From the NCBI GenBank assembly GCA_018883705.1, contig JAHLFQ010000161.1, positions 1-34,322 of the forward strand: DNA of 34,322 nucleotides, given 5' to 3'. The DNA is from Candidatus Cellulosilyticum pullistercoris (GTDB lineage: Bacteria > Bacillota > Clostridia > Lachnospirales > Cellulosilyticaceae). Shown here piece after piece: positions 3,421 through 30,628 of this stretch. The position numbers and the translations under genes are program-made. How positions within the stretch are numbered: the stretch's first letter is position 1; the number at the start of each line of letters is the position of its first letter. The notes beneath the pieces are model-generated. The model saw nothing but the letters and a program-made list of their open reading frames with translations. It did no database searches and was not told where the DNA came from.

Positions 3421-4572
3421 ATGTTCAAGTGCCTTAAGAAATATCTTGCTTCCACTCTTCTACTTAGCTTACTCGTAACCGGCTGCTCGTCTCCTTCTAG
3501 TAACACCTCTTCTACTTTAAACACAAGCTCTAATCATCCCACTCAGCTTACTGAATCTAAACTCGAAACTAACCTACCTTCTTCTACTCCAGTCACTACT
3601 CCCAATTTTACTCTTCCTGCATCTAAACCTACTCCCACCTTTGATCCTAATACACCTGTAGGCATGCATGGTACATTGAATGTACAGGAAACTTACATAG
3701 TAGATGAAAATAATCAGCCTTTTCAACTTCGTGGTGTGAGTACTCATGGGTTACAATGGTACCCTGGATTTGTGAATGAAGGAAGTTTTGCTACGCTGCG
3801 TGATGATTGGAAGGTTAATGTGGTTCGTTTAGCTATGTATACGGATAATGATTCTGGCTACTTAGGCAATACAGCTGGAATGGAATCTCTTGTCAGAGAA
3901 GGTATTGATCTAGCTACACAAGCCGGTCTCTATGTCATTGTAGATTGGCACTGTTTAAAAGATGGCAATCCCAACACTCATAAAGATGAAGCTATTCGAT
4001 TCTTTAGCCAGATTTCAGCAGAATATATCAACTATCCTAATATCCTCTATGAACTTTGTAACGAACCTAATGGGGAAGATGTAACTTGGAATCAAGATGT
4101 TAAACCCTATTGTGAAACACTCATTGAAACCATTCGTGCTATTGATGAACAAAGTATTATTATAGCTGGTACTCCCACTTGGAGTCAGGATATTCACCTA
4201 GCAGCCCAAAATCCATTAAAAGGTGATAATATTATGTATACACTTCACTTCTATGCAGATACACATCGAGAATTTCTACGTGATCGTTTAGTGGATTGTA
4301 TCACCACTTATAAACTTCCTGTATTTGTTTCCGAATTTGGTACTTGTGATGCTTCAGGTAATACGCATTTCAACGAAGAACAATCTGATATATGGCTAGA
4401 TCTTCTAGATCAAAATCATATCAGCTGGGTGAATTGGAGTCTTTGTGATAAAAAAGAAACTGCCTCTCTTTTAAAACCACTTACTAGTTCACGTGGCAAT
4501 TGGACAGATGAAGATTTAACAGATACCGGATTATATATTAAAAATAGACTTCTAGACGCTTATCCTGATTAA
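3421..4572 (+). CDS. GH5 (subfamily 2-like) endo-beta-1,4-glucanase lipoprotein
   Basis: This is an extracellular cellulase-type enzyme that hydrolyses internal beta-1,4-glucosidic bonds, tethered to the membrane by lipid. The signal peptide ends in lipobox LVTGC (Cys22). A Ser/Thr/Pro-rich linker spans about 23-80. The GH5 barrel runs from about 85 to 378, with acid/base E215 in LCNEPNG, nucleophile E305 in VSEFG, and conserved RGVSTHGLQWYP near 104-115. No carbohydrate-binding module is present. The length (383 aa) fits a single-domain enzyme. It is the only plus-strand gene in the left half. The catalytic domain looks complete, but the stop codon coincides with the edge of an IS4-type remnant, so a few original C-terminal residues may have been lost. 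RBS is weak (AGGATG). A TATACT -10 candidate lies at 3370-3375 without a clear -35. Confidence 0.9.
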   Translation: MFKCLKKYLASTLLLSLLVTGCSSPSSNTSSTLNTSSNHPTQLTESKLETNLPSSTPVTTPNFTLPASKPTPTFDPNTPVGMHGTLNVQETYIVDENNQPFQLRGVSTHGLQWYPGFVNEGSFATLRDDWKVNVVRLAMYTDNDSGYLGNTAGMESLVREGIDLATQAGLYVIVDWHCLKDGNPNTHKDEAIRFFSQISAEYINYPNILYELCNEPNGEDVTWNQDVKPYCETLIETIRAIDEQSIIIAGTPTWSQDIHLAAQNPLKGDNIMYTLHFYADTHREFLRDRLVDCITTYKLPVFVSEFGTCDASGNTHFNEEQSDIWLDLLDQNHISWVNWSLCDKKETASLLKPLTSSRGNWTDEDLTDTGLYIKNRLLDAYPD

Positions 4573-5512
4573 ATCCCGCTTTTTTAAATTTGATCCTACG
4601 AGGATTTTTGCGGTCTTCCCGAACGGGTAATATATTCTTTCGAATAAGAACTTCCACCTCAGGTGGATGTACATTTTCATCCCTAAAGAATTTTTTGTAG
4701 ATATGAATGGCTACAGTAAAATTTACTTGATACTCATTCTTTGTAGGCTTTTGCTGAACGACTACGTGCAGAGTAATCATCTCACACAAGTTATACATAA
4801 CAAGTCTTGCAAATACTTCTTGGATAATGTACTCCACCTTTTTTGCGTGAAAACTTATAAGTCCAAGTGCATATTTCAACTCTCTAAAAGAGGTCTCTAT
4901 TCCCCACCTCATGTGATAAAGTTTTTTCAGCTCTTCTGACGAAAAGGCATCAGCATCAAGATTGGTAATAACTGTTTCATATGTATCATCAGTGATTTTA
5001 AAACGTACAACACGAAACCACATAGGATAAAACTTCTTTTGTTTGCTTTCTTGTAAGTTCACGATAAACATTTTTATAATGATATATTTCCAACCTTTTT
5101 CTTGAATATGTGCTAAAACGTTATAACTTTCATAACCTCGATCTGCCATGATGATAGTATTTTTATCTAAGTTTGATCGATCCACCATATCTGTTAATGC
5201 TTTATACTCATTTTCTTCTCTTCCAGATTTGAAATATTTAAGTCTGATCCATCAACCGCTAATAATCTATACCCTTTATAAGTTTTATGCTGCTTAAATG
5301 ATTCATTAAATTCATGGAATAAAAACTCAAATGCAAAAGGTAGAATTTTATCCCGCTGTTGCACAAAAGTTGAAGAAGTAGCTATATTAGGTGTATAGCC
5401 ACAGTAGTCTAATAGTTCTTTATAAATACTATTTCCATTCATATTTAAGAGTAAACCAAACATGGTTTTGAAATCTAATTTGCGATTACGTGTACGTAAT
5501 GAGTCATTAGTA
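4573..5512 (-). pseudogene. Decayed IS4-family DDE transposase
   Basis: This is the remains of one transposase gene, now in at least two frames. The 5' part (to 5194) carries KLDFKTMFGLLLNMNGN and the first catalytic Asp (VDGSDL). It is followed by a frame break near 5215-5222, where roughly 50 residues expected before NEYKALTDMVDRS are absent. The 3' part (4538-5188) carries the second Asp (MADRGYES) and the Glu region (WGIETSFRELKYALGL). A second internal loss lies between GWKYII and KFYPMWFR, where I would expect some 70 more residues. No in-frame ATG precedes the conserved N-terminus except the internal one at 5463. At the C-terminus the usual last residues after KFKKA are missing and the frame runs into the GH5 gene. 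The expected lengths come from my memory of the family. It is surely non-functional. Confidence 0.85.
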
Positions 5513-7191: not shown

Positions 7192-10100
7192 TTAAATACC
7201 TGCGCCCATAAAAATCTTAAATTCTAATTCTGAACTTGTTTCTAAATTGGTTGTAAACTCATAGTTAAATTCTTGCACTTCAGTTGTTAAGTCAAATGCT
7301 TTAACAAAGTAATCTGCATAACTCTTATTAGAAGTACGCATTTGAATTTTCTTATCTCTATCTGCTTTTCCTTTAAAAGAAAGTACATATCTTTTTCCTT
7401 GTTCTAATGTCGTATTAGGCTGATACATAATAACATCCCAAGGATCTTTCCCCTCATTAGTAATTGTTATTTGAGCACCTGTTGTAGACTCAAATTTGAA
7501 ATTTGCGCCTCCTCCTATAAGCCATGCCCCTTGAGCATTAAAATCTCCATCCTTAAGAAGATTAGTATCTGTACCTTTTTCTACTAGTACAAGATCATCT
7601 AGCGTCACTACGATTTCAGTGCTTTCTTTCACTGGTTCTTCATATAGCATCACATCATTAATTGTAATTTGATTTTTACCACTATGATATGCATTAGTCC
7701 ACTCATCATAGCCCATCTGGAATTTAAGAATTAAATCAGATACAACTTCTGGTGTTACAGTAAATTTATGCTCATAAGTATTGTGACCTTGTTGCAGATG
7801 GATAATTTGAGCATTTTCTCCTATATATTCTTGACTTGATGAATCTTGAAGTGCAATACGTAAACTAGATGCTGTTGTTACATTAGCATTAAATTTGATA
7901 ACATAAGTCTTTCCCTGTTTTAATGAAAGACCATCTTGTTCTAAAGTAATCTGCCATGCTTCGTCACCACTGTTTTCAATATCTACCTGTAATCCATCAT
8001 TACGAGTAAAAGTAGCCTCACCAGGTTTTACTGCATATTGATTCCATCCAAAATCTTCTTTATCCTCAAAATTTCCATTTTGTAAGAGATTACTGATTTC
8101 TGTTGGTACATCTTCTCCACTTTCTTCCTTTTCCTCTCCTGGAACATCCGTTACATAGATATCATCTAAAGTAATGGTTGTAGGTACTGCACCGTCTTGT
8201 TTTCCTGCTTCTAATGCTAGTTTAGCATCTTCATCTGTAGCCTCATTCATTGTGAATCTAAAGACATGTTGTTGCTCCGCCTCTGTAATATCAAAAAATT
8301 GATCATTTGATAAATAGTTAGTATAAGAATAATCTGCTGCCTCATGTCCAACACTTACTTTAAGTTTTGTTGCTGCCTCACTTTGAGCTTTAAATCCTAC
8401 TTCATATGTCTTACCTTTTTCAAGTTTGATACCTCTTTGAGAAAGTTGTATCTCCCATGGATTACTTCCTAACTCTTTAATAGCCATTTGTAAAGCCTCA
8501 TCTAATACGGATATATCAGCTTCTGCGCCTTGGTCACTCGCAACGTAAGTACTCCAATTGTTCGTTCCATCATTAAATTGACCATTTTTTAGTTGTGATT
8601 TTAATAAGACACCATCTTTTACTTCACATACAATATTGTCAATGGTTACTGTATGCGTTTCTATCGGAGCATCTACTGTCTTTCCTATTAAGAATTTAAG
8701 ACCTAAGTCTAAATCTCCATCTGCAGGCATGGTATATTCAAAACTATATTTTTGCTTTTCTGGTGTTAAATTTACAGTCTTCTCAAAGAATGCCCTCCAA
8801 GTACCTTCTTGCTCTGTTTTTACTACCATATCCCTTGGAATTTCTGATGATGCTTCAAAGGAAATTACATATTTCACTCCAGCCGAAAATGGTACGTCAT
8901 TTTGTGAGAGCATCACACTCCATGGATTAGCTCCTATATCACTAATAAAGAACTTTGCTTCATCCTCAAAAGTAACTTCCCCTACTCCACCTTCTACAAA
9001 TAATCCATTCCAGTTTGCTCCATCTTCAGAAAAATCACCATTCTTTAATGGGAAAATATTGACACCTGAAAAATCTTGTCTTGTTTCTACCACACTCACA
9101 TCATCTAATATAATGGTGCTTTGGTCTACTCCGCCCATTTCAAACACTAATCTACCTTTATTGGTACTAGTACCTTTACCTTGCAATACAAATTCATACT
9201 TCTCTTTGGTAGTGGTTAGATCTACTCTCTGTTCTGCATAAATCGTCTTCCCATCTTCACCTAAGAGTTTTACGTTCATGGATTGTGGCTTTTCTGCTTT
9301 TCCAGTAAAAGTCATCGTATAATTAGCGTTTTCACCCAGTTTTAAACCTCTTTGATCCAGTGTAATATCACTTAAATCACGACCACCTGCATCTACTTGA
9401 ATGTGTAAATCTCGTGTAGCTTCTGGAACATGCATTGTAACTGCTCCACCATTTTGAGTGTCTAAATTCCAGTAAGTGAGTCTATCTAATTTCCCTTTAT
9501 CAAATGCGCCATTATAAATTAAGCTACCATTTTTAAGTGGATTTTTAGGTCCATTAAAATCTTCAATAACAGGCTCACTTTCTACTTCTTCTAATTTAAC
9601 GTTGCCAATCCATACATCATTAGAATCTAGCCCAACATTAAATTCAAGACGTGCAGCAGTATCCGTACTACTTTTCATAACGAATGTTTTTTCTATATGC
9701 TGAATTTCTGTACTAATATTTTCAATGTATGTATCTGAATAGACAGCATAGCCCCTTGATTCTCCACCACCTACTTTAAACTGAATGGTTCTATCATCTT
9801 CAGCTTTTGCATCAAAAGAGAGCTTATAGGTTCTACCTCTTCCTAATGTTGTTTGCTCGATCATTTGAATAGAATAATCTTGGTTCCCTTTGTCTTGAAC
9901 TTTAATTCTTGCAAAAGGTACATCTTTCAATAATTCAATAGCTGCTTCTGCCTTTCCACCAAAATTATCTTTATACAGTAGATTCCAACCTTCTCCAAAG
10001 TTTAAATCTCCTTCTTTATTATCCTGAATACCGTAATCAGAATAGGTATTATCATAGATTAAATTACCATCTTCAAGTGGTTTTCTAGCATCTTGTGGAA

Positions 10101-12276
10101 GCTCTGGAATTTTAGAATCTGGATCTGAAGCTTCTGGATAGCTTCCTTCTTTACTTTCATAAAATCTTACATAGTCCACTTCCATCGCATGTTCCTTACC
10201 ACCTTCAAAAATAGATGAATCTACCTCTAAATTCGTTCCTACACCATCATACCAACCGCCTAATGCTAAATTGAGAATCACATGGAACTTTTTATCAAAA
10301 GGTGCTGGGAAAGCATATTTTTCACCTGTATCTGGATCTACTGTAAACCAGTTATCTTGAGTCTGATAAAGCTTACCATCTACATACCATCTGATTTCAC
10401 CTGGCTGCCACTCTATGCCGTAAGTATGGAAACCATCAATGCTCTCTCCTTCTGGGAAAACATAGTTACTGCCTGACTGAGAGTTATTCGGTGTCTTCTC
10501 TCCATAATGTAACGTTCCCCATACCTGATTAGGCACACTTCCTCTACTTTCCATAATGTCAATTTCTCCAGAACTAGGCCATCCTGTATACTCATCATCT
10601 TCTGGAAGCATCCAAATAGCAGGCCATAGAGACTTGCCTAATGGCAACTTTGCTCTGACTTCTATTTTCCCATATTTTTGAGCATATTTTCCTTTAGAAA
10701 CCATTCTAGCAGAAGTATACTCATGTGTTATACCATCAATCGTTACATCTTCTTTTTTACCAGTAATCGTAAGCACGCCATCAGCTACTGTTGCATTCTT
10801 TGCTTGATAAACTTGTTTTTCCTGATTGAGATTCAAGAAACCATTGTTATAATCCCATTTATTAGAATCTACTTGATTTCCATCAAACTCATCACTCCAA
10901 GCAAGCTGCCACTTCGTTTCATCCACATGATCTCCCGGTTTTTCTTCATTTGGCTTTTCTTCTTCTACCAGTTTGTCTTCGGATGGTGACTCATTTTCTT
11001 CTGGCTTATTAATATTAGGAATCTTATTGGTGTTGACATCAATATTAGATTGAATACCTGGTGCAGTCACTATATCATTAGGTTTGATTTCTGTTTTTAT
11101 ACCTGCTATATTTTCATTCAATCGTTTGATTTCACCCTGTCCTACTATGTTCATAGCTCCATCAGCTACAACTAATTGAATAACAGAGCCTTTTACCATT
11201 TCTATTTGAGCTGGTTTAGCATTTTTATCTTGGGTGGTGTTAGGTAGCGTCACTAATTTATCTGCACTTAAAGTGCTTCCTAATTTTAGTGTGACATTGG
11301 AAGGTACCATAATTTCTGAAAAAGTTCCTTCTAGGGTTACTGTTGAATGATTCTGCAAATGAGTAGATATTTTTTTGCCTGTATTAACAATCCTTACTGG
11401 TTTTGCAACTGCCACACTGATTGGATGATCTAGAGTAATATCCTTACAGTGAATAGAGTTTTCTCCTCCGCCTTCCACAAACACTGTCCCTTTTACAGTA
11501 ATATGATCTAGTGTTACATCTCCACGCCCTATACCTTCTGCTAAATATAAATTACCGGATACCGTCATATCCTGGAGGATAACATCTTTTGTATTGATTA
11601 CTAAATTCCCTTTAACATCCACTTTATAGGTTCCTGCTTCTTGTATAATCGTTGATGTTAAACGATCTATAACCATCATCATTTGTGCTCTCGTTAAATA
11701 TGCTTGAGGTGCAAAGCTCCCATCAGGCATTCCTAACATATAGCCATTTCCTACTAAAGCCTGAACTGATTCTATAGCCCAATCAGATATATCTCCTTGA
11801 TCTTTAAAAGTTTTAGCTTCTGCCTTTGTTAAACTATAAGCTCTAGAAAAAGCATAGGCTAATTCTTCACGGGTAACCGGTTGATCAGGTTTAAATCTTT
11901 CTCCTGTATCCTTCATAAGCCCTGCTGAACTGACATGCTCAATGGCAGAGGCATACCATTTACCTTCATTTACGTCTTCATAACTTTTTGCATATGTACT
12001 ATCTTCTAATTTAAATATGCGATCAATAACTGCTGCAAGCTCTGCTCTTGTTACTTGATTTTGAGGTCTAAAACTATAATCCTCATATCCTGATACAATT
12101 CCATTTTGACTCCATTTATAAATAGCTTCACTATACCAAGCATTTTCTTTTACATCATTAAATATTTTTTCTGTGGTTATAGGTGCCGCAATACCAGTTG
12201 CTTGAATCTGAGATAACATCATCGCAGTTACCAACAAGCTAGTTAATCTTCTCTTACTACTACCCATCTTTCTCAT
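7192..12276 (-). CDS. S-layer-anchored GH16 laminarinase with six CBM4-like modules
   Basis: This is a very large (1694 aa) cell-surface endo-beta-1,3-glucanase. A signal peptide spans about 1-31. Three SLH domains (about 38-85, 98-150, 157-206) should bind secondary cell wall polymer. A beta-helix-like region of short V/I/T repeats (215-395) sits where Clostridium thermocellum Lic16A carries CBM54. An acidic Pro/Glu linker leads to GH16 (456-707). Its motif EIDIME gives nucleophile E571 and acid/base E576; the extra Met makes it laminarinase-type, not lichenase-type. Six CenC/CBM4-like modules start at about 736, 915, 1076, 1227, 1396 and 1571, most opening with L-x-(N/D)-G-x-F. The last ends abruptly without its final strand. 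A spare terminal strand (about 1551-1568) follows module five. The RBS is GGGGGA before ATG 12276. Probably co-transcribed with the small peptide and lichenase upstream, since no terminator is seen between them. Confidence 0.92.
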   Translation of the reverse strand: MRKMGSSKRRLTSLLVTAMMLSQIQATGIAAPITTEKIFNDVKENAWYSEAIYKWSQNGIVSGYEDYSFRPQNQVTRAELAAVIDRIFKLEDSTYAKSYEDVNEGKWYASAIEHVSSAGLMKDTGERFKPDQPVTREELAYAFSRAYSLTKAEAKTFKDQGDISDWAIESVQALVGNGYMLGMPDGSFAPQAYLTRAQMMMVIDRLTSTIIQEAGTYKVDVKGNLVINTKDVILQDMTVSGNLYLAEGIGRGDVTLDHITVKGTVFVEGGGENSIHCKDITLDHPISVAVAKPVRIVNTGKKISTHLQNHSTVTLEGTFSEIMVPSNVTLKLGSTLSADKLVTLPNTTQDKNAKPAQIEMVKGSVIQLVVADGAMNIVGQGEIKRLNENIAGIKTEIKPNDIVTAPGIQSNIDVNTNKIPNINKPEENESPSEDKLVEEEKPNEEKPGDHVDETKWQLAWSDEFDGNQVDSNKWDYNNGFLNLNQEKQVYQAKNATVADGVLTITGKKEDVTIDGITHEYTSARMVSKGKYAQKYGKIEVRAKLPLGKSLWPAIWMLPEDDEYTGWPSSGEIDIMESRGSVPNQVWGTLHYGEKTPNNSQSGSNYVFPEGESIDGFHTYGIEWQPGEIRWYVDGKLYQTQDNWFTVDPDTGEKYAFPAPFDKKFHVILNLALGGWYDGVGTNLEVDSSIFEGGKEHAMEVDYVRFYESKEGSYPEASDPDSKIPELPQDARKPLEDGNLIYDNTYSDYGIQDNKEGDLNFGEGWNLLYKDNFGGKAEAAIELLKDVPFARIKVQDKGNQDYSIQMIEQTTLGRGRTYKLSFDAKAEDDRTIQFKVGGGESRGYAVYSDTYIENISTEIQHIEKTFVMKSSTDTAARLEFNVGLDSNDVWIGNVKLEEVESEPVIEDFNGPKNPLKNGSLIYNGAFDKGKLDRLTYWNLDTQNGGAVTMHVPEATRDLHIQVDAGGRDLSDITLDQRGLKLGENANYTMTFTGKAEKPQSMNVKLLGEDGKTIYAEQRVDLTTTKEKYEFVLQGKGTSTNKGRLVFEMGGVDQSTIILDDVSVVETRQDFSGVNIFPLKNGDFSEDGANWNGLFVEGGVGEVTFEDEAKFFISDIGANPWSVMLSQNDVPFSAGVKYVISFEASSEIPRDMVVKTEQEGTWRAFFEKTVNLTPEKQKYSFEYTMPADGDLDLGLKFLIGKTVDAPIETHTVTIDNIVCEVKDGVLLKSQLKNGQFNDGTNNWSTYVASDQGAEADISVLDEALQMAIKELGSNPWEIQLSQRGIKLEKGKTYEVGFKAQSEAATKLKVSVGHEAADYSYTNYLSNDQFFDITEAEQQHVFRFTMNEATDEDAKLALEAGKQDGAVPTTITLDDIYVTDVPGEEKEESGEDVPTEISNLLQNGNFEDKEDFGWNQYAVKPGEATFTRNDGLQVDIENSGDEAWQITLEQDGLSLKQGKTYVIKFNANVTTASSLRIALQDSSSQEYIGENAQIIHLQQGHNTYEHKFTVTPEVVSDLILKFQMGYDEWTNAYHSGKNQITINDVMLYEEPVKESTEIVVTLDDLVLVEKGTDTNLLKDGDFNAQGAWLIGGGANFKFESTTGAQITITNEGKDPWDVIMYQPNTTLEQGKRYVLSFKGKADRDKKIQMRTSNKSYADYFVKAFDLTTEVQEFNYEFTTNLETSSELEFKIFMGAGI

Positions 12277-12320: not shown

Positions 12321-12440
12321 TTAATAAAATATCAAGATTCCTATGCAGATTAAAATACTAATCATCAATATAATAGCTACCCCAATACCTACCTTTTGCT
12401 TGATACTTAAAACACTTCTTATCTCATGATGTCCTTTCAT
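12321..12440 (-). CDS. Small single-span membrane peptide (39 aa), function unknown
   Basis: This short gene lies between the lichenase and the laminarinase. I translated it from ATG 12440 to TAA 12321-12323. The Shine-Dalgarno GGGGAG lies 7 nt upstream, just after the lichenase stop codon, so start and spacing look genuine. Residues 1-16 are polar and basic (MKGHHEIRSVLSIKQK). Residues 17-39 are one continuous hydrophobic stretch of Val, Ile and Leu, ending in IFY. It has no Cys lipobox and no obvious cleavage site, so an N-in single membrane anchor is likely. I recognise no family. Its position suggests a role at the membrane alongside the secreted glucanases, but that is inference. A chance reading frame cannot be excluded. 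Confidence 0.6.
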   Translation of the reverse strand: MKGHHEIRSVLSIKQKVGIGVAIILMISILICIGILIFY

Positions 12441-12453
12441 ACATGTTCTCCCC

Positions 12454-13227
12454 TTACTTCTGGTCATAAGCTGTTACTCTCATCCAGTCATACTCTGCGA
12501 TAAGTGGCACTGTACCGTCAAAACGACCTAACCAACTGTCTACACCTATACCTGGCCAAGTATTCATCATGACTTTTCCAGGAGTTTTAGGAATATTTTC
12601 TGTGACTTTATAAACTTCTACCCCATCTACATACCATGTAATGGAATCCTTTAACCATTCAAAACCATATTCATGAAATTCTTGCGCTGCATCAAACCCT
12701 AAATCATATATGTATTCGTGTTGTCCAACCCCATCTGTAAAATAATTAAATTGTACCTTGGTTGTGTCTTTACCTAAAAACTCAATATCGATTTCATCCC
12801 AAGGATTTTGATCACTGGGTCCTGTATAAGTAAAGAATGAAGAAACGACCCCTTCATTTTTAATAGGCTTCATACGTACCTCATACATTCCATAATGATA
12901 CATTTGCCTACTTCTATATTCTGCCCCAGACCATGGTGGCTTTGCCTCACCCTCTTCTTTATCAATCTTTAGTTGCATCTTGCTATCTTCAAAAGTTATG
13001 TTGTTTCCTCTCCACGTACAATTAAACATACTTCCATTTGAATAACCATCTGCTTTTTGCATCCACTCATTTTCTGCTTGTTCAAATTCTAATTCTAGTT
13101 TTATTTTACCTTTCAAATCTCTCATCCCTTTTTGTATAATTTGCTCTTCCACATGATTTTTATTTTCATTATTACATCCACAAAGTACTAATCCAACACT
13201 TAATGCCATGAGTAGGCTTTTTTTCAT
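12454..13227 (-). CDS. GH16 lichenase (beta-1,3-1,4-glucanase) lipoprotein
   Basis: This hydrolyses beta-1,4 bonds next to beta-1,3 bonds in mixed-linkage glucan, releasing oligosaccharides such as cellobiosyl-beta-1,3-glucose. The signal peptide ends in lipobox LCGC (Cys18), so the 257-residue enzyme should be lipid-anchored on the outer face. The active-site strand [10 protein letters not shown] gives nucleophile E145 and acid/base E149. The spacing E-I-D-I-E, without the inserted Met, is the lichenase type. [19 protein letters not shown] and the C-terminal [13 protein letters not shown] also fit this group. It is the first gene of a unit that continues with the 39-aa peptide and the laminarinase. 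GGAG lies 8-9 nt before ATG 13227. Upstream are a TATACT -10 and the shared 20-bp element where the -35 should be, suggesting an activator-dependent promoter. Confidence 0.9.
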
Positions 13228-13391: not shown

Positions 13392-14678
13392 CTAACGAGC
13401 TACATTTTCAATGAATTGGTCTGAATCTATTTGACCGCTTACAAGCTGTGATAAAGTTTCATAATATATGCTAGAAAAATTTTCATCAAATACTTGATCA
13501 TATGCAGGATGCATTGTCTTATCTTTTGCAATTTGTGCGCACTGATAGAGTGTTGGAAATACTTTTGGATTAACCTTTTGATTTTCATAGGCAGGTAACC
13601 CTATTCCATATTTTTCTATAGCTTTTGTTGAAACTTCTTTTACGATTTCAAAGTAAGCTTCTTGTAAGGACTCATCCTGGGTAATTTGACTTTGTTTATT
13701 AATGACTAAAGTATCTGCATAACCTCCTACTCCTACCGCTTGGGGGATCTCCGGAAAAGATATAATATCTATTTTACCTTTTACTTTAGAATCTGCTCCC
13801 TCTACATTAGCAGCCACCCAACTTCCAGATAATATCATGGCTGCTTTTCCTTGAGAAAAGTCATAGGAAGCATCATAGGAATCATTTTCCAAATAATTTT
13901 TTCCCCATGGTTTAGCTTGTATCAATGCTTCTAACTTCTGAGCAGCATGATAAAACTGTTCTGTTTTGAATAACTGAGGATTTGTTGCTGCTTCATATAC
14001 ACCTTCAATAGTCCCTTCAGTTAATACTAAATTCATATAGTATAAGGAGGTGAGCCATATTTCTTTTGAGCCACTACTCATAGGCGTAATTCCTTTAGCT
14101 TTTAACTGCTCTATAGTTGTTAGTAGTTCTTCGTAAGTATTTGGATATTGTAACTGGGCCTTCTCAAATAATTCTCTATTACAAAATAAAGCTGTGCACC
14201 ACCCATAAACAGGCATCCCATATATTTGTCCATTATAGGTTACGCCATCCATAGCCCCTTGTAGAGGCTTCTCACCGTCATAATATTTCTCCATTGCCTC
14301 ACTGATATCCCATACTAAATCTAAATCTACAAATTTTTTAAGTTTTTCATATCCCCAGAAAAAAAACACATCTGGAAGCTCATTGGTAATAACTGCATTT
14401 TCAATACTTGATTGATAAACCTCATTTTTAAAGGTAGTCACTTCAATCTTAATATCTGTACGTTTACTTTCATAGGTTCTAGCTACTTCATTAAGAATAT
14501 CTTCAATTCCCCCATGAATTGTCCATATCTTAATTGTTTTTACTGGCACCTCTTTATTTCTAGTACTCTTAGTATTTCTAATATCTGAATAAATGACACA
14601 TAGTAATATTCCTAAAATAGATGTTAAACATATGATAATGCCTACAATCACTCTATTTATGAATCTATCATCCCCCAT
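13392..14678 (-). CDS. Membrane-anchored ABC-type sugar-binding protein (family 1)
   Basis: This is an extracellular carbohydrate-binding protein related to ABC importer receptors (428 aa). Instead of a lipoprotein signal it has an N-terminal membrane segment (about 8-30, IVGIIICLTSILGILLCVIY). No lipobox Cys at the right place and no clear signal-peptidase site are visible, so it should be tethered by a transmembrane helix. The body from about 46 (VKTIKIWTIHGGIEDIL) through PDVFFFWGYEKL, YGMPVYGW and GKAAMILSGSWVAANVEG follows the family-1 binding-protein pattern. It follows the ABC importer operon but is separated from the last permease gene by a terminator, so it may be expressed at another level (TATAAT at 14725-14730 is a possible -10). 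It could feed the same permeases or act as a sugar sensor. The RBS is GGGGAG before ATG 14678. Confidence 0.85.
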   Translation of the reverse strand: MGDDRFINRVIVGIIICLTSILGILLCVIYSDIRNTKSTRNKEVPVKTIKIWTIHGGIEDILNEVARTYESKRTDIKIEVTTFKNEVYQSSIENAVITNELPDVFFFWGYEKLKKFVDLDLVWDISEAMEKYYDGEKPLQGAMDGVTYNGQIYGMPVYGWCTALFCNRELFEKAQLQYPNTYEELLTTIEQLKAKGITPMSSGSKEIWLTSLYYMNLVLTEGTIEGVYEAATNPQLFKTEQFYHAAQKLEALIQAKPWGKNYLENDSYDASYDFSQGKAAMILSGSWVAANVEGADSKVKGKIDIISFPEIPQAVGVGGYADTLVINKQSQITQDESLQEAYFEIVKEVSTKAIEKYGIGLPAYENQKVNPKVFPTLYQCAQIAKDKTMHPAYDQVFDENFSSIYYETLSQLVSGQIDSDQFIENVAR

Positions 14679-14781: not shown

Positions 14782-15648
14782 CTATGCTTTTACTGCACCA
14801 GCAGTCATACCTCTTATAAATTGTTTTTGTAAACCAAAGAAGATAATAAGTGGTGGTAACGTTGTTACACATCCTGCTGCCATCAATAGATCATATCTAT
14901 TTTGATAGTTTCCTACATATAATCTGATTCCTACTGGAATAGTCGCTACATCTGAAGAAGTAGTCAGTACCCACGCAAACAACAATTCATCCCATGCCAT
15001 AAGGAAAATATAAATTCCTGTAGCAATTAATCCAATCCTAGCGATTGGTAATATAATTCTTATAAATGCTCCAAGTTTACTACATCCATCAATAATAGCC
15101 GCTTCTTCTAGTTCTGTTGGAATACTTGCAAAGAACCCACGTAAAATCCAAATACTAAAAGGAATAAAGAATGCAGAATACACTAAAATTAAAGCACCAT
15201 AGGTATTAATAATTTTAATACCTAACATATCTTGAATTTTAATAAATACTAAATAAAGAGGTAATAAGAACATAATTCCAGGTACCATCTGAGTTGCCAG
15301 TACAGCAGCTCCAAATATATTAGAACCTGGGAATTTAAATCTAGCTGTTGCATATCCTGCAAAGGTTGCTAAAGCTAGAGCTATAGCTGTTGTTGCACTA
15401 CATACAATAATACTATTCTTGAAATATTTAAAGAAATCTACATTCTTCCACATTTCACTATAATTACTAAAGTGACTTGGTGTCCCTAATTTACCTGTTG
15501 CAATATCTCCTTGTGTCATTAATGAAGTAATTGCCATCCATACAATAGGAAATAAAGCTAGTAAAACAAATATCCAAACAACTACTGTTGCTAGAGTGTT
15601 CATTATATCTTTTCTTCGTTTTATTTGAGATAATTTTTGTGTTTTCAT
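14782..15648 (-). CDS. Sugar ABC transporter permease, MalG type
   Basis: This is an inner-membrane subunit of a carbohydrate-uptake-1 ABC importer (288 aa, usual length). There are about six hydrophobic segments. The cytoplasmic EAA loop that contacts the ATPase reads EEAAIIDGCSKLGAFIRIILPI. The C-terminal QKQFIRGMTAGAVKA is typical of MalG-like proteins. Its ATG shares one base with the TAA stop of the upstream permease gene (TAATG), so the two are translationally coupled. A terminator follows. No ATPase gene is present in the window; such importers in Firmicutes often use a shared MsmX-type ATPase encoded elsewhere. Substrate by context: beta-gluco-oligosaccharides (inference). Confidence 0.92.
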   Translation of the reverse strand: MKTQKLSQIKRRKDIMNTLATVVVWIFVLLALFPIVWMAITSLMTQGDIATGKLGTPSHFSNYSEMWKNVDFFKYFKNSIIVCSATTAIALALATFAGYATARFKFPGSNIFGAAVLATQMVPGIMFLLPLYLVFIKIQDMLGIKIINTYGALILVYSAFFIPFSIWILRGFFASIPTELEEAAIIDGCSKLGAFIRIILPIARIGLIATGIYIFLMAWDELLFAWVLTTSSDVATIPVGIRLYVGNYQNRYDLLMAAGCVTTLPPLIIFFGLQKQFIRGMTAGAVKA

Positions 15649-16622
15649 TAGTCATTCACCACCAAATCATTTTGGAATATTTTATACCATACGCCCACTA
15701 ATGAGAGGACACAAATCATAACAATAACTGTCGCTGCTGCACCAGCACCAAATTGCCAAATTTGGAAGGAGTTACGATTAATATTAGTCATCAATAAATC
15801 TCCATACTTACCTGGGAATCCTGCACCATGTCCAAACATCATTGCTACAATATTAAACGAATAAATATAGTTGATAATACCATTAAGAATTTGTATAGAT
15901 AAAACAGATCTTAATAGTGGCAAGGTAATATTTCTAAATTGTTGCCATGCATTGGCACCATCTATTTCAGCTGCTTCGTAATAATCAACTGGTATTTGCT
16001 GAAGACCTGCTAAAAGCATCAGCATAACAAATGGAACAGTTCTCCATATAGTTGGAATCATAATAGCAATAAGAACTTTAGGTCCTGTTAGCCAGTAAGT
16101 TTTTTCCGGCATGATATGTAAAACATCTACAATAATTCTATTGATAACGCCATCTTGTTGCCACATAAAGCCCCATAATAAACCAACTACAAAAGATGGT
16201 ACAACCCAAGGAGTCATTAATAACGTTCTAGCAAGCCCTTGGAATCTAAATTTTCTGTTTAAGAGTATTGCTAATAATAGTCCAATGGAAATGACTAAAA
16301 TACTACATGAAACTGAAAAAATAGCGGTATTTCTAAAGGCATCAAGAAATCCTGAACGCATCGTACTATTAGGATCTAAGAGCACTTCTTTATAGTTGTC
16401 AAATCCTATAAAAGGTGCTTTTAAAAATTGATTGAGTGTGAATTGGTTTAATTTTAGAAATGACATACAAATTCCCGATACGATAGGAATTACATGTATA
16501 ATGAGCATGGCTACTAGCGCTGGTGCAATCAGACCATATGCTAGTTTATTTTTTTTGATTTGATACATTAACCCTTTCTTAGGTGTTTTATTGGTATGAG
16601 AAACTTTTTGAACTTTAGTCAT
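15648..16622 (-). CDS. Sugar ABC transporter permease, MalF type
   Basis: This partner permease of the MalG-type gene forms the transmembrane channel with it. About six membrane segments follow a basic N-terminus. The EAA loop is YEAAEIDGANAWQQFRNITLPLL, preceded by AGLQQIP as usual. I chose ATG 16622 (324 aa) because AGGAGGAGA stands directly before it. An upstream in-frame ATG at 16640 would include that ribosome binding site in the coding region and has no site of its own. It lies 76 nt downstream of the binding-protein gene and overlaps the next permease gene by one base. Confidence 0.92.
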   Translation of the reverse strand: MTKVQKVSHTNKTPKKGLMYQIKKNKLAYGLIAPALVAMLIIHVIPIVSGICMSFLKLNQFTLNQFLKAPFIGFDNYKEVLLDPNSTMRSGFLDAFRNTAIFSVSCSILVISIGLLLAILLNRKFRFQGLARTLLMTPWVVPSFVVGLLWGFMWQQDGVINRIIVDVLHIMPEKTYWLTGPKVLIAIMIPTIWRTVPFVMLMLLAGLQQIPVDYYEAAEIDGANAWQQFRNITLPLLRSVLSIQILNGIINYIYSFNIVAMMFGHGAGFPGKYGDLLMTNINRNSFQIWQFGAGAAATVIVMICVLSLVGVWYKIFQNDLVVND

Positions 16623-16698
16623 ATCTTCTCCTCCTGTCATAGTATATCTGCTCTATAATTAGTTCATAGAGCAGATATATACAATGCCATTATGTTAT

Positions 16699-18096
16699 CT
16701 ATTGTTGACTATAGATTGTTGTACATTCACTAGCTGTTTGATCTAAGAATTCTTGAGTTTTAGCTGGATCATATGGACCAAATACACCCATAATATTATC
16801 CCATACATTACTTAATCCTTTTTGAAGAAGTGTTTCTGATGGACCCCATCCTGCTACAGAAGGATATGCTTTACCATATTGTAATTGTTCTTTGAAAGCT
16901 ACGCGCATTTCTTCGCGTGTTACGAATTCTGTTTCGAAAGCTGCTTTAACAGCTGGTAAGTTTCCACATTTTTCTTGATATGCTATTTGAGCATCTGGAG
17001 TCATTAAATACTCAAGTACTCTATAAGCTGCTTCTTTGTTTTTAGAATTTTTAAATACTGAAAGACCACTACCACCAAAGAATGCATATCTACCTTCAGG
17101 TCCTTCAGGAATTGGAGCTGTGCCAACTTTTTCAGCAAGTTCTGGTTGTTCTTTTCTTAAAGTTGCAATTTCATAAGCTCCTGAGAACATAGATGCAAAT
17201 TCACCTGCATTAAATAATGCTTCAATTTCTGATGAGTTTTTCTCTAAAGCAGGCATACTCATAAGACCTTCTGTTGCAAGTTCTGTGTAGAATTTAACAC
17301 CTTTGAATGCTTCGTCAGAGTTAATTACAGATGTTTTATTATCTTCTGCAATAAAGTCACCACCTGCACCCCAGATCCATGGTGCATAGTTATGAATAAC
17401 GTTCCAGTCATTTTTACCTGGCATACCTAAAGCAGGTACTTTAACACCATCAATTTCTACATCTTTCATCTTAGTAAGAGCTGCTTTGAAGCTGTCCCAT
17501 GTTTCAAAGTCTTTTGTTGGATCAACACCGGCTGCTTCACAAATATCTTTTCTGTAGAATAATGCTCTTGTATCAATAAACCATGGTGCTGCGTATCTTT
17601 CTTCACCTGCACCAAGAATTTGAGTAGTTGGAAGGGTAGCATCTACGAAAGCTGCTTCTCCACCAAATCTTTCATATACAGGTGTTAAGTCTTCTAAAGC
17701 ACCCATGGCTGCAATAGCTGCAATTTGTGTGGTTCCAAGCTGAGTAATATCTGGTCCCTCTCCACTGGTTGCTGCTGTTGTTAGTTTTGTCCAAGCTGAT
17801 CCCCAGTCTAATACAGTTGGCTGTACCTCTATATCTGGATTCGCTTCTAAAAATGGCTCTAACATAGTCATAAAGTCAGCTTCTGCCTCACCACTGTTTG
17901 GCATAATCCACATGGTAACAACTGTTTTATCTCCTGAAGTTGTATCTTTAGCTGCATCCGGACTAGCTGATACAGTTGTTCCAGTTTCTCCTTTACTAGA
18001 TGTTGTAGTGGTTTCTGTACTACCACTTCCACATCCTACTACAGAAGTAGCTGCTAATGTTGTTGCTAAAAGACTAAGTATTAATTTTTTCTTCAT
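16699..18096 (-). CDS. Sugar-binding lipoprotein of the ABC importer (family 1)
   Basis: This extracellular receptor delivers sugar to the two permeases encoded after it. The signal peptide ends in lipobox VVGC. A Ser/Thr/Gly/Asp-rich spacer then leads into VVTMWIMPNSGEAEADF, the start of a family-1 solute-binding fold. PDITQLGTTQIAAIAAMGALEDL and GEFASMFSGAYEIATL are typical later segments. I placed the start at ATG 18096 (465 aa), with AAGGGTGAG 4-5 nt upstream; the GTG three codons earlier lies inside that site. It is first in the importer operon and so probably the most expressed gene. The promoter carries a shared 20-bp element. Many of these proteins bind oligosaccharides, and beta-glucan fragments are the contextual guess. 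The exact ligand is unknown. Confidence 0.93.
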   Translation of the reverse strand: MKKKLILSLLATTLAATSVVGCGSGSTETTTTSSKGETGTTVSASPDAAKDTTSGDKTVVTMWIMPNSGEAEADFMTMLEPFLEANPDIEVQPTVLDWGSAWTKLTTAATSGEGPDITQLGTTQIAAIAAMGALEDLTPVYERFGGEAAFVDATLPTTQILGAGEERYAAPWFIDTRALFYRKDICEAAGVDPTKDFETWDSFKAALTKMKDVEIDGVKVPALGMPGKNDWNVIHNYAPWIWGAGGDFIAEDNKTSVINSDEAFKGVKFYTELATEGLMSMPALEKNSSEIEALFNAGEFASMFSGAYEIATLRKEQPELAEKVGTAPIPEGPEGRYAFFGGSGLSVFKNSKNKEAAYRVLEYLMTPDAQIAYQEKCGNLPAVKAAFETEFVTREEMRVAFKEQLQYGKAYPSVAGWGPSETLLQKGLSNVWDNIMGVFGPYDPAKTQEFLDQTASECTTIYSQQ

Positions 18097-18131
18097 ATAT
18101 CTCACCCTTTTGTTATGTATTTGATAATATA

Positions 18132-18225: not shown

Positions 18226-19974
18226 TTAATAAGGTATCTTTAATAGGATTTTTGTATATTCTCCACATCTAGAATCAATTTCTATGACCTCATTTGTATC
18301 TTTTAAATCATAGTAAAGTAATATTCTAGTAATAATTGCCTTCAAACCAAATCCGGATTTTACCTCTAATTTTTCACCAGTTTTAATTTTTTGTATCATT
18401 TCTTCACTTATACCTATGCCATCATCTTCTATTGTAATAAACATCATTTTTTGCTCTTTATTTAGCTTTATAGCAAGATGTACATTAACAGGTTGTCCTA
18501 TTTTTTTTATGCCGTATTTAATACTATTTTCTACTAGCGATTGTAATGTAATCTTAAGAATCTTGTGTTCTAATGCCTCTTCTTCTACATCATAGGTTAT
18601 ATGGATAATATTTGGATTCCTAATAACCGCAATCTTTACATATTCTTTCACAATTTGTAGTTCTTCTTGAATCGTAATAACATCGTCTCCCGTCCCTAAG
18701 CAAGCTCTATAATATTTGGCTAAAGTTTTAATCAGCTCATCAGCTGCTTCCTTTTCTTCTAGAGCAACCATGATACTAGCTGTATTTAGTGTATTATATA
18801 AAAAATGTGGCTTAACCTGATGATTAATAATAGATAATTCTAACCGTTTTTGCATTTTTTCTTTCTCTTTTACTTCACTCACTAATTCTTTGATTTCTTG
18901 CATCATTTCATCTAAGGCATAAGTAATCTCATATACTTCTGTATAACTTGTTGCTATAGTAAAATGAGTGTCTAAATTACCTTGTTTTCCTACCATTCTC
19001 GCTTTATCTGCAATGTGTTTTAACGGGAGAATCACTTTCCTTTTGATGAGTAAAGATGCCCCGCTCAAGAAAATAATATTAACTGTAACTGCAAATAAAA
19101 AAATTGTATTCATATTTGTATTAGCTCTAGCATGGCTGTTAATGCCCATAATCTTACCATTTAATATAGGCATATCTTGTATCACATAATAATACTTTTT
19201 ACTCCCTCTTTTGATATAGTTATATTCCTTATCTTCCCACCTTACGATCTCTTCTATATTGTTTAACTCTATATCCCTAGGTATTTGAAAAGTTTGATCT
19301 AAACTATCTTTAATCCTTACTTTTAAATCAATATTATCCAGCATATCGCGACATGTTTTTTCAAACTCTCTAGGATCTATATAAATGATCAAATAACCCA
19401 ATGACTCTAATTTATCTCTAGAACGTATCATCCTTGCTAAATATAGAGTACTTCCCACTTCTGGTTCTAAGACATTGGTACCTATCCCCCAATATACGCT
19501 TCCTTTCTTTTGCTCTATTAATGATAAATCTAACTGTTCTAAAAAATCTGCTGTATTTTTTAAATAACTAGGTTCCTTAAACTCAGAAATCACATTACCT
19601 TTGCTAGTAATAATATGTATCGATCTTATGCCATCTCTACCCACAAGAGCATCTCTTAATGTCTTATTGACTACTCTCATATTTGTTTCATTTTCTATCG
19701 ATAGTGCCTGCTGAAGAAATGTATTGGTTAATAACTCAGCAGATATTCTCTCATTCTCTTGCATATGCTTAGTTATAAAATAAGATACTGTATTGAGTGC
19801 TTCTTGATCTCCTTTTTTAAGTTTATAATCTACCTCTTTTTGTAACATCAATTGGAATAAAAAAATTCCAAAAAATAAAGAAATACTCATAGTTATAAGA
19901 TAACTTCTAATCAAGATCCAACTTACACTTTTAATATGTATTTTTTGCTTCAAATGTCTATATGGGCTAATCAT
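18226..19974 (-). CDS. YesM-type sensor histidine kinase
   Basis: This is a membrane sensor that phosphorylates the response regulator encoded just upstream. From GTG 19983 it would be 585 aa. I prefer ATG 19974 (582 aa), which has GGGTGAG about 4 nt upstream and overlaps the regulator gene by 8 nt. TM1 is at about 20-45, an extracytoplasmic domain at about 46-288, TM2 at about 290-310, then HAMP. The His_kinase motif NHQVKPHFLYNTLN carries the phospho-His (about residue 390). The HATPase has VENSIKYG, EDDGIGI and SGFGLKAI. This family commonly pairs with AraC-type regulators next to sugar ABC importers and senses the sugar or its binding protein. Only a weak A/T stem follows the gene, so read-through into the importer operon is possible. 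Confidence 0.93.
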   Translation of the reverse strand: MISPYRHLKQKIHIKSVSWILIRSYLITMSISLFFGIFLFQLMLQKEVDYKLKKGDQEALNTVSYFITKHMQENERISAELLTNTFLQQALSIENETNMRVVNKTLRDALVGRDGIRSIHIITSKGNVISEFKEPSYLKNTADFLEQLDLSLIEQKKGSVYWGIGTNVLEPEVGSTLYLARMIRSRDKLESLGYLIIYIDPREFEKTCRDMLDNIDLKVRIKDSLDQTFQIPRDIELNNIEEIVRWEDKEYNYIKRGSKKYYYVIQDMPILNGKIMGINSHARANTNMNTIFLFAVTVNIIFLSGASLLIKRKVILPLKHIADKARMVGKQGNLDTHFTIATSYTEVYEITYALDEMMQEIKELVSEVKEKEKMQKRLELSIINHQVKPHFLYNTLNTASIMVALEEKEAADELIKTLAKYYRACLGTGDDVITIQEELQIVKEYVKIAVIRNPNIIHITYDVEEEALEHKILKITLQSLVENSIKYGIKKIGQPVNVHLAIKLNKEQKMMFITIEDDGIGISEEMIQKIKTGEKLEVKSGFGLKAIITRILLYYDLKDTNEVIEIDSRCGEYTKILLKIPY

Positions 19975-21067
19975 TAAGCTCACCCACCACTTTCTTATAC
20001 TCGTTAGGTGTCATATGAATATACTTCTTAAACAACCTTGTAAAATAAGTGGTATCTGTATACCCCAATAAGTCGCATACTTCATACACCCTTAAATTCT
20101 CTTCTCTTAATAAAAATTGGGCACGTTTCATTTTTATACGCGTTACAAAATGCAGGAAATTTTCTCCTGTTTCATTCTTAAAAAGACTACAAAAATAATT
20201 TTTACTTATAGATAATGTTTCACTTATAGTAGTTAGTGTAATCTCTTCATCTATGTGCTCAACTACATATTGGCAAGCTTGCATTACTACATTATCCTTA
20301 TAGATCACCCGACTTTCTTCCAAAATCTTAAATATTCCTTTTACATTTTTCTCAAATCCCTCTATAAGTTCCTCTTTTATATTCGCTTCTTGCTCTCCAT
20401 AATGAAGATATTGTTCAATATTCTTTAGTTTAGTTAAGTAGATATATTTTTCTTTTACCCTACTTACTAATTCTTCTAATATGTAAGAAAATCTCATACA
20501 CATACTAGAAATATGTCCTTCTCCTAGTTCTCTTTCTTCTTCTACAATCTTCTCTAAAACCTCAAGTGCTTTTGAATTAATTCCCATTATATATTTAATG
20601 AGTAATTTATCATTTTCCCTAGAAAATACCCTCTCTTTACTATTTTCTATTTTTATATCATGTGATTTATATCTATTTTCACTTTCCAACTTTTTCAGTA
20701 GTTTTTCCTTAATCTTATTTAAGGTCTCTATCATCTGCTCTTCCTCTATAGGCTTTAAAAGATAATCTGTTACACCATATTGAATGGCACTTTTAGCATA
20801 CTCAAATTCTCCATATGCAGTTAAAATGACTATTTCTCCTAGATAGCCACTCTTTCTTGCTTCTTTCATTAACTCTATTCCATTCATAATAGGCATTCCT
20901 ATATCCGTAATCATGACATCTATTTTCTGTGTGGCTTGCTGGACTAATGCTTCTTCACCATTTTCTGCTTCACAGACTACCTCAAATCCTAATTCTTCCC
21001 ATCCTATTAGTTTATTTAGCCCTTTTCTTACAATAGGCTCATCATCTACTAATTGTACAGTAAACAT
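19967..21067 (-). CDS. YesN-type response regulator with AraC DNA-binding domain
   Basis: This is the transcription factor of the two-component pair. The receiver domain (1-120) has acidic pocket VDDE, phospho-acceptor D55 in MITDIGMP, T in LTAYG and K in LLKPIEEEQ. A divergent middle section (about 125-265) follows. The C-terminal AraC-type double helix-turn-helix is at about 270-366, with LTTISETLSISKNYFCSLFK and VCDLLGYTDTTYFTRLFKKYIHMTPNEYK. I chose ATG 21067 (366 aa). The upstream in-frame TTG (21085) would put the ribosome binding site GGGGGGG-A inside the gene. It is first in the unit and overlaps the kinase gene. It is the natural candidate to bind the shared 20-bp elements of this locus (inference). 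Its own promoter carries a different, long palindrome. Confidence 0.93.
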   Translation of the reverse strand: MFTVQLVDDEPIVRKGLNKLIGWEELGFEVVCEAENGEEALVQQATQKIDVMITDIGMPIMNGIELMKEARKSGYLGEIVILTAYGEFEYAKSAIQYGVTDYLLKPIEEEQMIETLNKIKEKLLKKLESENRYKSHDIKIENSKERVFSRENDKLLIKYIMGINSKALEVLEKIVEEERELGEGHISSMCMRFSYILEELVSRVKEKYIYLTKLKNIEQYLHYGEQEANIKEELIEGFEKNVKGIFKILEESRVIYKDNVVMQACQYVVEHIDEEITLTTISETLSISKNYFCSLFKNETGENFLHFVTRIKMKRAQFLLREENLRVYEVCDLLGYTDTTYFTRLFKKYIHMTPNEYKKVVGELND

Positions 21068-21083
21068 AAATCTTCCCCCCCAC

Positions 21084-21142
21084 AATAATAGGTATTAGAA
21101 TCATTCTAACACCTATTATACAATACAATTATTTATTTTCAA
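21084..21142 (-). promoter_or_regulatory. Response regulator promoter with long palindrome
   Basis: On the minus strand TTGAAA (21137-21142) and TATAAT (21115-21120) are 16 nt apart. An inverted repeat then starts inside the -10 and covers the expected transcription start. Its arms are 21085-21100 and 21104-21119 around TCA, about 16 bp with one mismatch (a G-U pair in the transcript). No T-run follows it, so it looks more like an operator or a 5' mRNA hairpin than a terminator. The -35 overlaps the upstream neighbour's terminator region. Confidence 0.6.
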
Positions 21143-28834: not shown

Positions 28835-30628
28835 TTAGTTATTTAATTCTACATGAGAGGGTGGTGCAAATTGGCTATTATACAGTGATTCATAGAAACC
28901 ACCTTGTGCCATTAACTCTTCATGTGTTCCTTTTTCTATAATATCTCCTTCATTAAGAACTAAAATCAAGTCTGCACTTTTGATAGTTGAAAGTCGATGA
29001 GCAATCACAAAACTTGTTCTTCCCTTCATAATATTTTTCATTGCATTTTGAAGCATAAGTTCGATTCTTGTATCTACTGAACTTGTCGCTTCATCTAGAA
29101 TCAAAATAGCTGGATCTGCTAATATAGCCCTAGCAATGGTTAATAGCTGCTTCTCACCTTGTGAGATATTAGATGCTTCTTCATTTAGCATCATATCATA
29201 ACCATCTGGCAAAGTTTTAATAAAGTGATGCACATTAGCAATCTTCGCTGCTTCTATAATTTCTTCCCTCGTTGCACCAAATCTTCCATACTCGATATTT
29301 TCAGCAATTGTACCTTTATAGAGCCAAGTATCTTGTAACACCATTCCAAAAATGCTTCTTAGATCTTCTCTCTTCATGTCACGAATATCAACACCGTCTA
29401 TTTTTATAGAACCTCCATTTACATCATAAAAACGCATAAGTAAGTTAATAAGTGTTGTTTTTCCTGCTCCTGTTGGCCCTACGATGGCTACCATCTGACC
29501 ACTCTTGACTTCTACATTTAAATCTTTAATCAGTGTCCTTCCTTCTTTATAACCAAACTTAACATGTTCAAAAGTTACATTCCCTTTAACATCAGTTAAT
29601 TTAGAAGTATTGTTTACGTCACTTATTTCTTCCTCTTCTTCTAAAAATTCAAAAACACGCTCTGCTGCTGCAAATGCGGATTGAATAGCTGATGAAAGTT
29701 GAGTTACTTGTGTGAGGGGCTGATTAATCTGCCAAATATAACGGATAAAAGCTTGTAAATTTCCTACAGTTATAGCACCTCTGATGGTTAGTATCCCTCC
29801 CATAGCACCTACAATAGCAATCCCTAAATAGCTTATAAGTGATACTAAAGGCGACATAATGCTTGAAATAAATTGTGCCTTAAATCCTGTCTGGCAAAGT
29901 TCTTCATTAATGCCTACAAATTCTTCTATAGCATCTTCTTGCTTACCATATAATTTAATTTCATTAAACCCTGTATACATTTCTTGTACAGCACCATTTA
30001 ATTTACCTAATGCTTGTTGTTGATTATAAAATAAGCGTTGTGATTTACCTACAATAAACTTAGATACTAAATAACTGAGCGGTATAATAAGAGTGGCTAT
30101 TAGTGCCATTTGAATATTAATGGCATACATCATACCAAGTGCAAGCGCGAGCACTAAGACCGAATTAATCACTTGGCTAAAACTTTGTTGCATGGCATTA
30201 GAGATTGTATCAATATCATTAGTTATACGACTTAGTACATCTCCAAAGCTATTTTGATCGAAATAGCTAATAGGTAATTTTCTTATCTTACTTTGTACAG
30301 CATCTCTTAAGTCCTTAATCGTATTTTGAATCGCATTGGTTAATAAGTAACTTGCTACATACGTAGATACTGCACTTATAACATAAAGGACACCTAATAA
30401 ACTAAGTATTTTAATAATATAAGGAAAATTAATCCCTGCATTTTCTATCCCTTTATTCATAGCTAATACATCTTCTGTAAGTTGCGTAATAATTAACCCT
30501 TCTGTTCTTGGTGTAATAGCATTAATAACGGCTGCAGCGACAATAAATACAACAGCTCCTAAAAAAGGAAGCATATAAGGTTTTAGAAAAGGAATGAGTT
30601 TTTTAATTGTTTCTTTAAAGTTTCTCAT
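28835..30628 (-). CDS. ABC exporter half-transporter with catalytically complete Walker B
   Basis: This is one half of a heterodimeric ABC exporter of the multidrug/LmrCD-YheHI type (597 aa). The six-helix membrane domain covers about 1-320. The nucleotide-binding domain has Walker A GPTGAGKTT, Q-loop GMVLQDTW, signature NISQGEKQ, Walker B ILILDEATSSVD with catalytic Glu, and H-loop IAHRLS. The signature departs from LSGGQ, while Walker B and H-loop are intact. The partner has the reverse pattern, so one canonical and one degenerate ATP site are expected. Its ATG overlaps the partner's stop (ATGA), with GGAGG upstream. Control by the divergent MerR-type gene is likely. Substrate unknown (drug or peptide export are usual). 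Confidence 0.92.
   Translation of the reverse strand: MRNFKETIKKLIPFLKPYMLPFLGAVVFIVAAAVINAITPRTEGLIITQLTEDVLAMNKGIENAGINFPYIIKILSLLGVLYVISAVSTYVASYLLTNAIQNTIKDLRDAVQSKIRKLPISYFDQNSFGDVLSRITNDIDTISNAMQQSFSQVINSVLVLALALGMMYAINIQMALIATLIIPLSYLVSKFIVGKSQRLFYNQQQALGKLNGAVQEMYTGFNEIKLYGKQEDAIEEFVGINEELCQTGFKAQFISSIMSPLVSLISYLGIAIVGAMGGILTIRGAITVGNLQAFIRYIWQINQPLTQVTQLSSAIQSAFAAAERVFEFLEEEEEISDVNNTSKLTDVKGNVTFEHVKFGYKEGRTLIKDLNVEVKSGQMVAIVGPTGAGKTTLINLLMRFYDVNGGSIKIDGVDIRDMKREDLRSIFGMVLQDTWLYKGTIAENIEYGRFGATREEIIEAAKIANVHHFIKTLPDGYDMMLNEEASNISQGEKQLLTIARAILADPAILILDEATSSVDTRIELMLQNAMKNIMKGRTSFVIAHRLSTIKSADLILVLNEGDIIEKGTHEELMAQGGFYESLYNSQFAPPSHVELNN

Follow-up and report, generated by a model that had tools for sequence, protein, structure and literature searches.

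The gap between two GH16 glucanase genes of Candidatus Cellulosilyticum pullistercoris holds a 39-codon open reading frame whose conservation makes it very probable that this is a genuine gene for a small membrane protein. The stretch of DNA analyzed, hereafter the window, comprises 34,322 nt. Within it, the peptide belongs with the lichenase and the upstream ABC-importer/two-component operon, and not with the downstream SLH 'laminarinase'. The best explanation, to which we assign a probability of roughly 0.4, is a lichenase-coupled small-protein gene whose helix would act as an accessory to the membrane proteins of a beta-glucan uptake locus.

The frame ends in a TAA stop, lies on the same strand as both GH16 genes, and translates as MKGHHEIRSVLSIKQKVGIGVAIILMISILICIGILIFY. 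It sits in a gap of 177 nt (lichenase stop at 12454, SLH-GH16 start at 12276), and its ATG is spaced 7 nt from the Shine-Dalgarno GGGGAG. The sequence 5′ of the start reads TAAGGGGAGAACATGT-ATG, wherein the TAA is the lichenase stop, placing the peptide start 13 nt past that stop. A very hydrophobic span (peak KD(19) hydropathy of 3.19) and a predicted helix covering residues 3-38 classified the product as having one transmembrane helix. Hence the layout described by an earlier sequence-only reading, namely 39 residues with a Shine-Dalgarno, an ATG, a basic head, and a single hydrophobic span, was present in full, as was a gap of the claimed size. When the gap was shuffled 5000 times with dinucleotides preserved, a comparable frame (starting with ATG, 30-60 aa long, and having both a Shine-Dalgarno match and a hydrophobic span) arose on the same strand in 0.14% of trials and on either strand in 0.32%. 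Two further frames in the whole window passed the same filter, 15648-15791 (-) and 30594-30737 (+), both within or across larger genes.

Table 1. Coordinates of the peptide gene and its neighbors in the window.
Feature	Position	Strand	Remarks
39-aa single-span membrane peptide gene	12321..12440	-	ATG 12440-12438, TAA 12323-12321
Shine-Dalgarno GGGGAG	12448..12453	-	Directly behind lichenase stop codon (TAAGGGGAG)
GH16 lichenase-type lipoprotein	12454..13227	-	Immediately upstream; constant neighbor of the peptide
Second solute-binding protein, SBP2	13392..14678	-	N-terminal hydrophobic span, no obvious lipobox; conserved upstream neighbor
Two ABC permease genes	14782..16640 (14782-15648, 15648-16640)	-	Conserved upstream neighbors
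First solute-binding protein, SBP1, lipoprotein	16699..18105	-	
His_kinase-family sensor kinase	18226-19983	-	Within 18226..21085
AraC-type response regulator	19967-21085	-	Within 18226..21085
SLH-GH16-CBM4_9 surface glucanase	7192..12276	-	Downstream; in window and G001, not in C. ruminicola

A search of the genus recovered the peptide in two other members of Cellulosilyticum. The orthologue in genome G001 has 39 aa (L002:1492-1611, minus strand), and that in C. ruminicola JCM 14822 (G005) has 41 aa (L003:1492-1617, minus strand); the same peptide was recovered from a named C. ruminicola record (L049). Each lies right behind an orthologous lichenase, with 13 nt (G001) or 11 nt (C. ruminicola) from lichenase stop to peptide start and with GGAGA as the Shine-Dalgarno. 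The two were 49% and 51% identical to the window peptide, and 17 positions were invariant in all three peptides, including K2, Q15-K16, G18, A22, C32, and G34. Frame-breaking changes in relatives, which the sequence-only reading had named as a ground for refutation, were not seen, the sole length difference being an in-frame 6-nt insertion in C. ruminicola. Three of the seven sampled Cellulosilyticum genomes had the peptide, always in single copy, and these were exactly the ones with the importer and this lichenase; in the other four, some of them incomplete, we found none of the importer permease, a close lichenase, or the peptide. The block is present or absent as a whole, and its distribution therefore does not distinguish among the importer, the kinase, and the lichenase as the partner.

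We then compared substitutions over the 39 codons shared by the three peptides, in three pairs that are not independent of each other. Differences at codon positions 1/2/3 numbered 8/12/22, 15/13/23, and 12/9/20. By NG86, pN was 0.25-0.35 and pS 0.62-0.83, the latter so near saturation that dN/dS is given as well below 1 with no precise figure. When the same nucleotide changes were relocated at random and scored by BLOSUM, the observed protein was more conserved than this null in each pair (p = 0.0024, <5e-5, and <5e-5), and just 8-24% of relocations were free of stops. Synonymous change thus greatly exceeds nonsynonymous change, the bias that the sequence-only reading had proposed to look for, and this marks the frame as a protein-coding gene. 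With the orthologues, this protein-level selection strongly supports its claim of a membrane-peptide gene, and we consider it very probable that the frame yields a real translated protein. One mirror antisense frame scored above its own null in two of the three pairs, an excess that is expected because wobble positions face each other; we rejected the antisense frame as a real gene, since in-frame stop codons interrupt it in two species.

In the direction of transcription, the Pfam order of the locus is GH94, GH94, AraC-type response regulator, His_kinase, SBP1, permease, permease, SBP2, lichenase GH16, peptide, SLH-GH16-CBM4_9, and GH1, and the portion from the first GH94 to the peptide is kept in all three species. 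No minus-strand terminator was found between the lichenase, peptide, and SLH genes in the window or G001, and 44 nt separate the peptide end from the SLH-GH16 start in the window. In C. ruminicola, the SLH-GH16 gene is absent, and the peptide is followed after ~40 nt by a 12-bp terminator and then by a convergent gene, which makes the peptide a member of the importer-lichenase unit, independent of the SLH enzyme. Placement in a glucanase transcript, as suggested earlier, agrees with the 11-13 nt distance behind the lichenase in three species and with a gap free of terminators. We infer that the peptide is cotranscribed with the lichenase, to which it is probably also translationally coupled.

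In all three species, SBP2 appears to begin with an N-terminal membrane span that is not cleaved off (window sequence MGDDRFINRVIVGIIICLTSILGIL). SBP1 is a lipoprotein, unlike SBP2, and the two flank one permease pair, such that one of them perhaps serves sensing. Paralogy of the peptide with the SBP2 N-terminal span was considered and rejected, as alignment scores equaled those of shuffles.

Beyond the genus, the peptide appears to be an orphan small membrane protein of narrow distribution. Among the 80 best named lichenase loci (76 extend 300 nt or more beyond the gene, and four end sooner), it occurred in C. ruminicola only. Five Clostridia outside the genus, namely Clostridium sp. KNHs205, Kineothrix, Herbinix, and two MAGs (loci L047, L048, L050, L051, and L053), share the arrangement HK-SBP1-permease-permease-SBP2-lichenase, each operon being partly visible; no such peptide was seen behind the lichenase in these five, and the importer and the lichenase can therefore generally work without it. 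In KNHs205, the ~510-nt gap after the lichenase (L048:6711-7222), where Cellulosilyticum has the peptide, contains an apparent long inverted repeat (TTTTGTGCT ... TATTATAAAACAGA and complement). Samples of 392 genomes from the order and 391 from the class held no credible relatives outside the genus; their only matches, with E between 1e-4 and 1e-2, fell for the most part within long frames, and we took them as chance hydrophobic similarity. Across 399 genomes of the phylum, nothing outside the window matched at 1e-3. Pfam, NCBIfam, and PHROG gave no match over a curated cut-off or with E below 1e-3, and a PDB search with the peptide returned nothing significant. The rest of the locus and its surroundings, the vicinity of the second GH16, and that of the SBP2 paralogues held no similar peptide, apart from an unrelated 44-aa frame near the edge of L173 (141-275).

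AlphaFold2 returned a single helix at residues 3-38, with pLDDT of ~95 over the span. Basic residues occur only N-terminal to the span, and by the positive-inside rule the N-terminus would therefore be cytoplasmic; we infer an N-in/C-out single helix, with the C-terminus predicted to be just at the outer face. The invariant cysteine is preceded by I in all three peptides, which departs from the lipobox [LVI][ASTVI][GAS]C, and no signal-peptidase site was evident by eye, so that the peptide should stay as a membrane helix. Since almost nothing lies outside the membrane, it could hardly anchor a secreted enzyme. The partner is more likely another membrane helix, and the operon offers two permeases, the SBP2 span, and the kinase, which modestly favors an accessory of the importer or sensor over an enzyme anchor. 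If the helix bound a partner, one conserved face would be expected, but across the three orthologues no such face reached significance (p ~0.2).

We thus tentatively view the peptide as an accessory of the importer/sensor machinery, with the partner proposed from its neighbors. Here, the single helix would modulate membrane proteins from the same transcript, candidates being the beta-glucan-oligosaccharide ABC permeases, the TM-anchored SBP2, or the sensor kinase, in a manner that may resemble the action of AcrZ, MgtS/MgtU, and LucB on their transporters. A narrower version of this proposal is doubtful: here the peptide would be a small subunit, confined to the genus, of a Gram-positive system for beta-glucan uptake, and it would tune either the ABC importer or the SBP2/sensor-kinase pair while being produced in parallel with the lichenase.

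The peptide could instead serve the lichenase itself, its helix aiding export, holding, or quality control of the lipoprotein enzyme, in keeping with its constant position 11-13 nt directly behind the lichenase and the co-occurrence of both in all three genus genomes. However, as a lipoprotein the lichenase already has a lipobox (LCGC in the window and LVGC in C. ruminicola), and SLH-GH16 has its own SLH anchor, which weakens the idea of anchoring. A second lichenase-like GH16 in G001, beyond SLH-GH16 (L147; G001:C1:4378188-4379357, +; 389 aa; 57% identity to the lichenase over 198 residues), has no peptide nearby, and among the 80 best lichenase loci the C. ruminicola one is alone in having it. 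The suggestion of the sequence-only reading that the peptide helps to secrete, anchor, or quality-control the surface enzymes therefore found no direct support: the peptide is kept in C. ruminicola, which lacks the SLH enzyme, and nearly all lichenases outside the genus do without it. We consider service to the lichenase unlikely.

Still less probable is a hydrophobic type I toxin-like peptide, or a small membrane peptide unrelated to glucan use. The size and layout are toxin-like, and the best NCBIfam match was to YonT, but at E 0.7 and 10.1 bits this was far below the cut-off of 45, leaving no match to a curated toxin family. Moreover, no Rfam RNA family matched in the window, promoter-like sites, antisense ones included, were no commoner than in shuffles, and the peptide holds a fixed operon position in single copy in three species. 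A leader or coupling frame, whose translation controls the downstream SLH-GH16 while the peptide itself is unimportant, would suit the short, terminator-free interval in the window; it is largely refuted by C. ruminicola, where a terminator and a convergent gene stand in place of that enzyme, and selection acts on the amino acids, making this reading very improbable. Least credible is a chance open frame in the intergenic gap, since, although AT-rich DNA does give short hydrophobic frames, the shuffle frequency was 0.0014, the orthologues show an in-frame indel and protein-level selection, and the codon-substitution pattern, while short of proof of translation, has already refuted it.

An importer or sensor accessory would have precedents among the small proteins that modulate bacterial transporters. 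AcrZ, MgtS, MgtU, MgtR, and SgrT are, like the window peptide, <50 aa, are mostly membrane helices, and several of them are co-produced with a transporter or bind to one (PMC10710835). Their targets, however, are RND, P-type ATPase, PitA, or PTS proteins. Operon position is what links the window peptide to a candidate transporter. LucB of the Mycobacterium MCE lipid importer is a small transmembrane protein on an ABC-type importer and a proposed regulator (PMC9882608, PMC10710835), but the transporter is of another type, and the sequences, compared through the PDB search only, showed nothing significant. YtrG of the Bacillus subtilis ytr operon (PMC12772383) is also among the closest systems, although that operon differs in concerning cell-envelope stress. 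In the accessible text of its description, the Blautia producta mixed-linkage beta-glucan locus is of the same kind as that in the window, sharing a GH16 endo-glucanase with CBM4 modules, an ABC importer with SBP, a GH94 phosphorylase, and an AraC-type regulator, and that text mentions no small membrane peptide (PMC10318527). In the literature searched, we found no Gram-positive polysaccharide-utilization locus described as containing a small membrane protein; open reading frames of such length escape most annotation.

If the peptide tunes the importer or the SBP2/sensor-kinase pair and its production parallels that of the surface lichenase, import capacity would follow enzyme output, and if it modulates import or sensing, it would represent a new regulatory layer in cereal beta-glucan use by rumen and related Clostridia. 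Its role is testable in culturable species such as C. ruminicola.

Finally, elsewhere in the window, a DDE transposase frame (4538-5188, 216 aa) matched only the C-terminal part of its model and overlapped the end of a GH5 gene (3421-4572), and is probably an insertion-sequence remnant.
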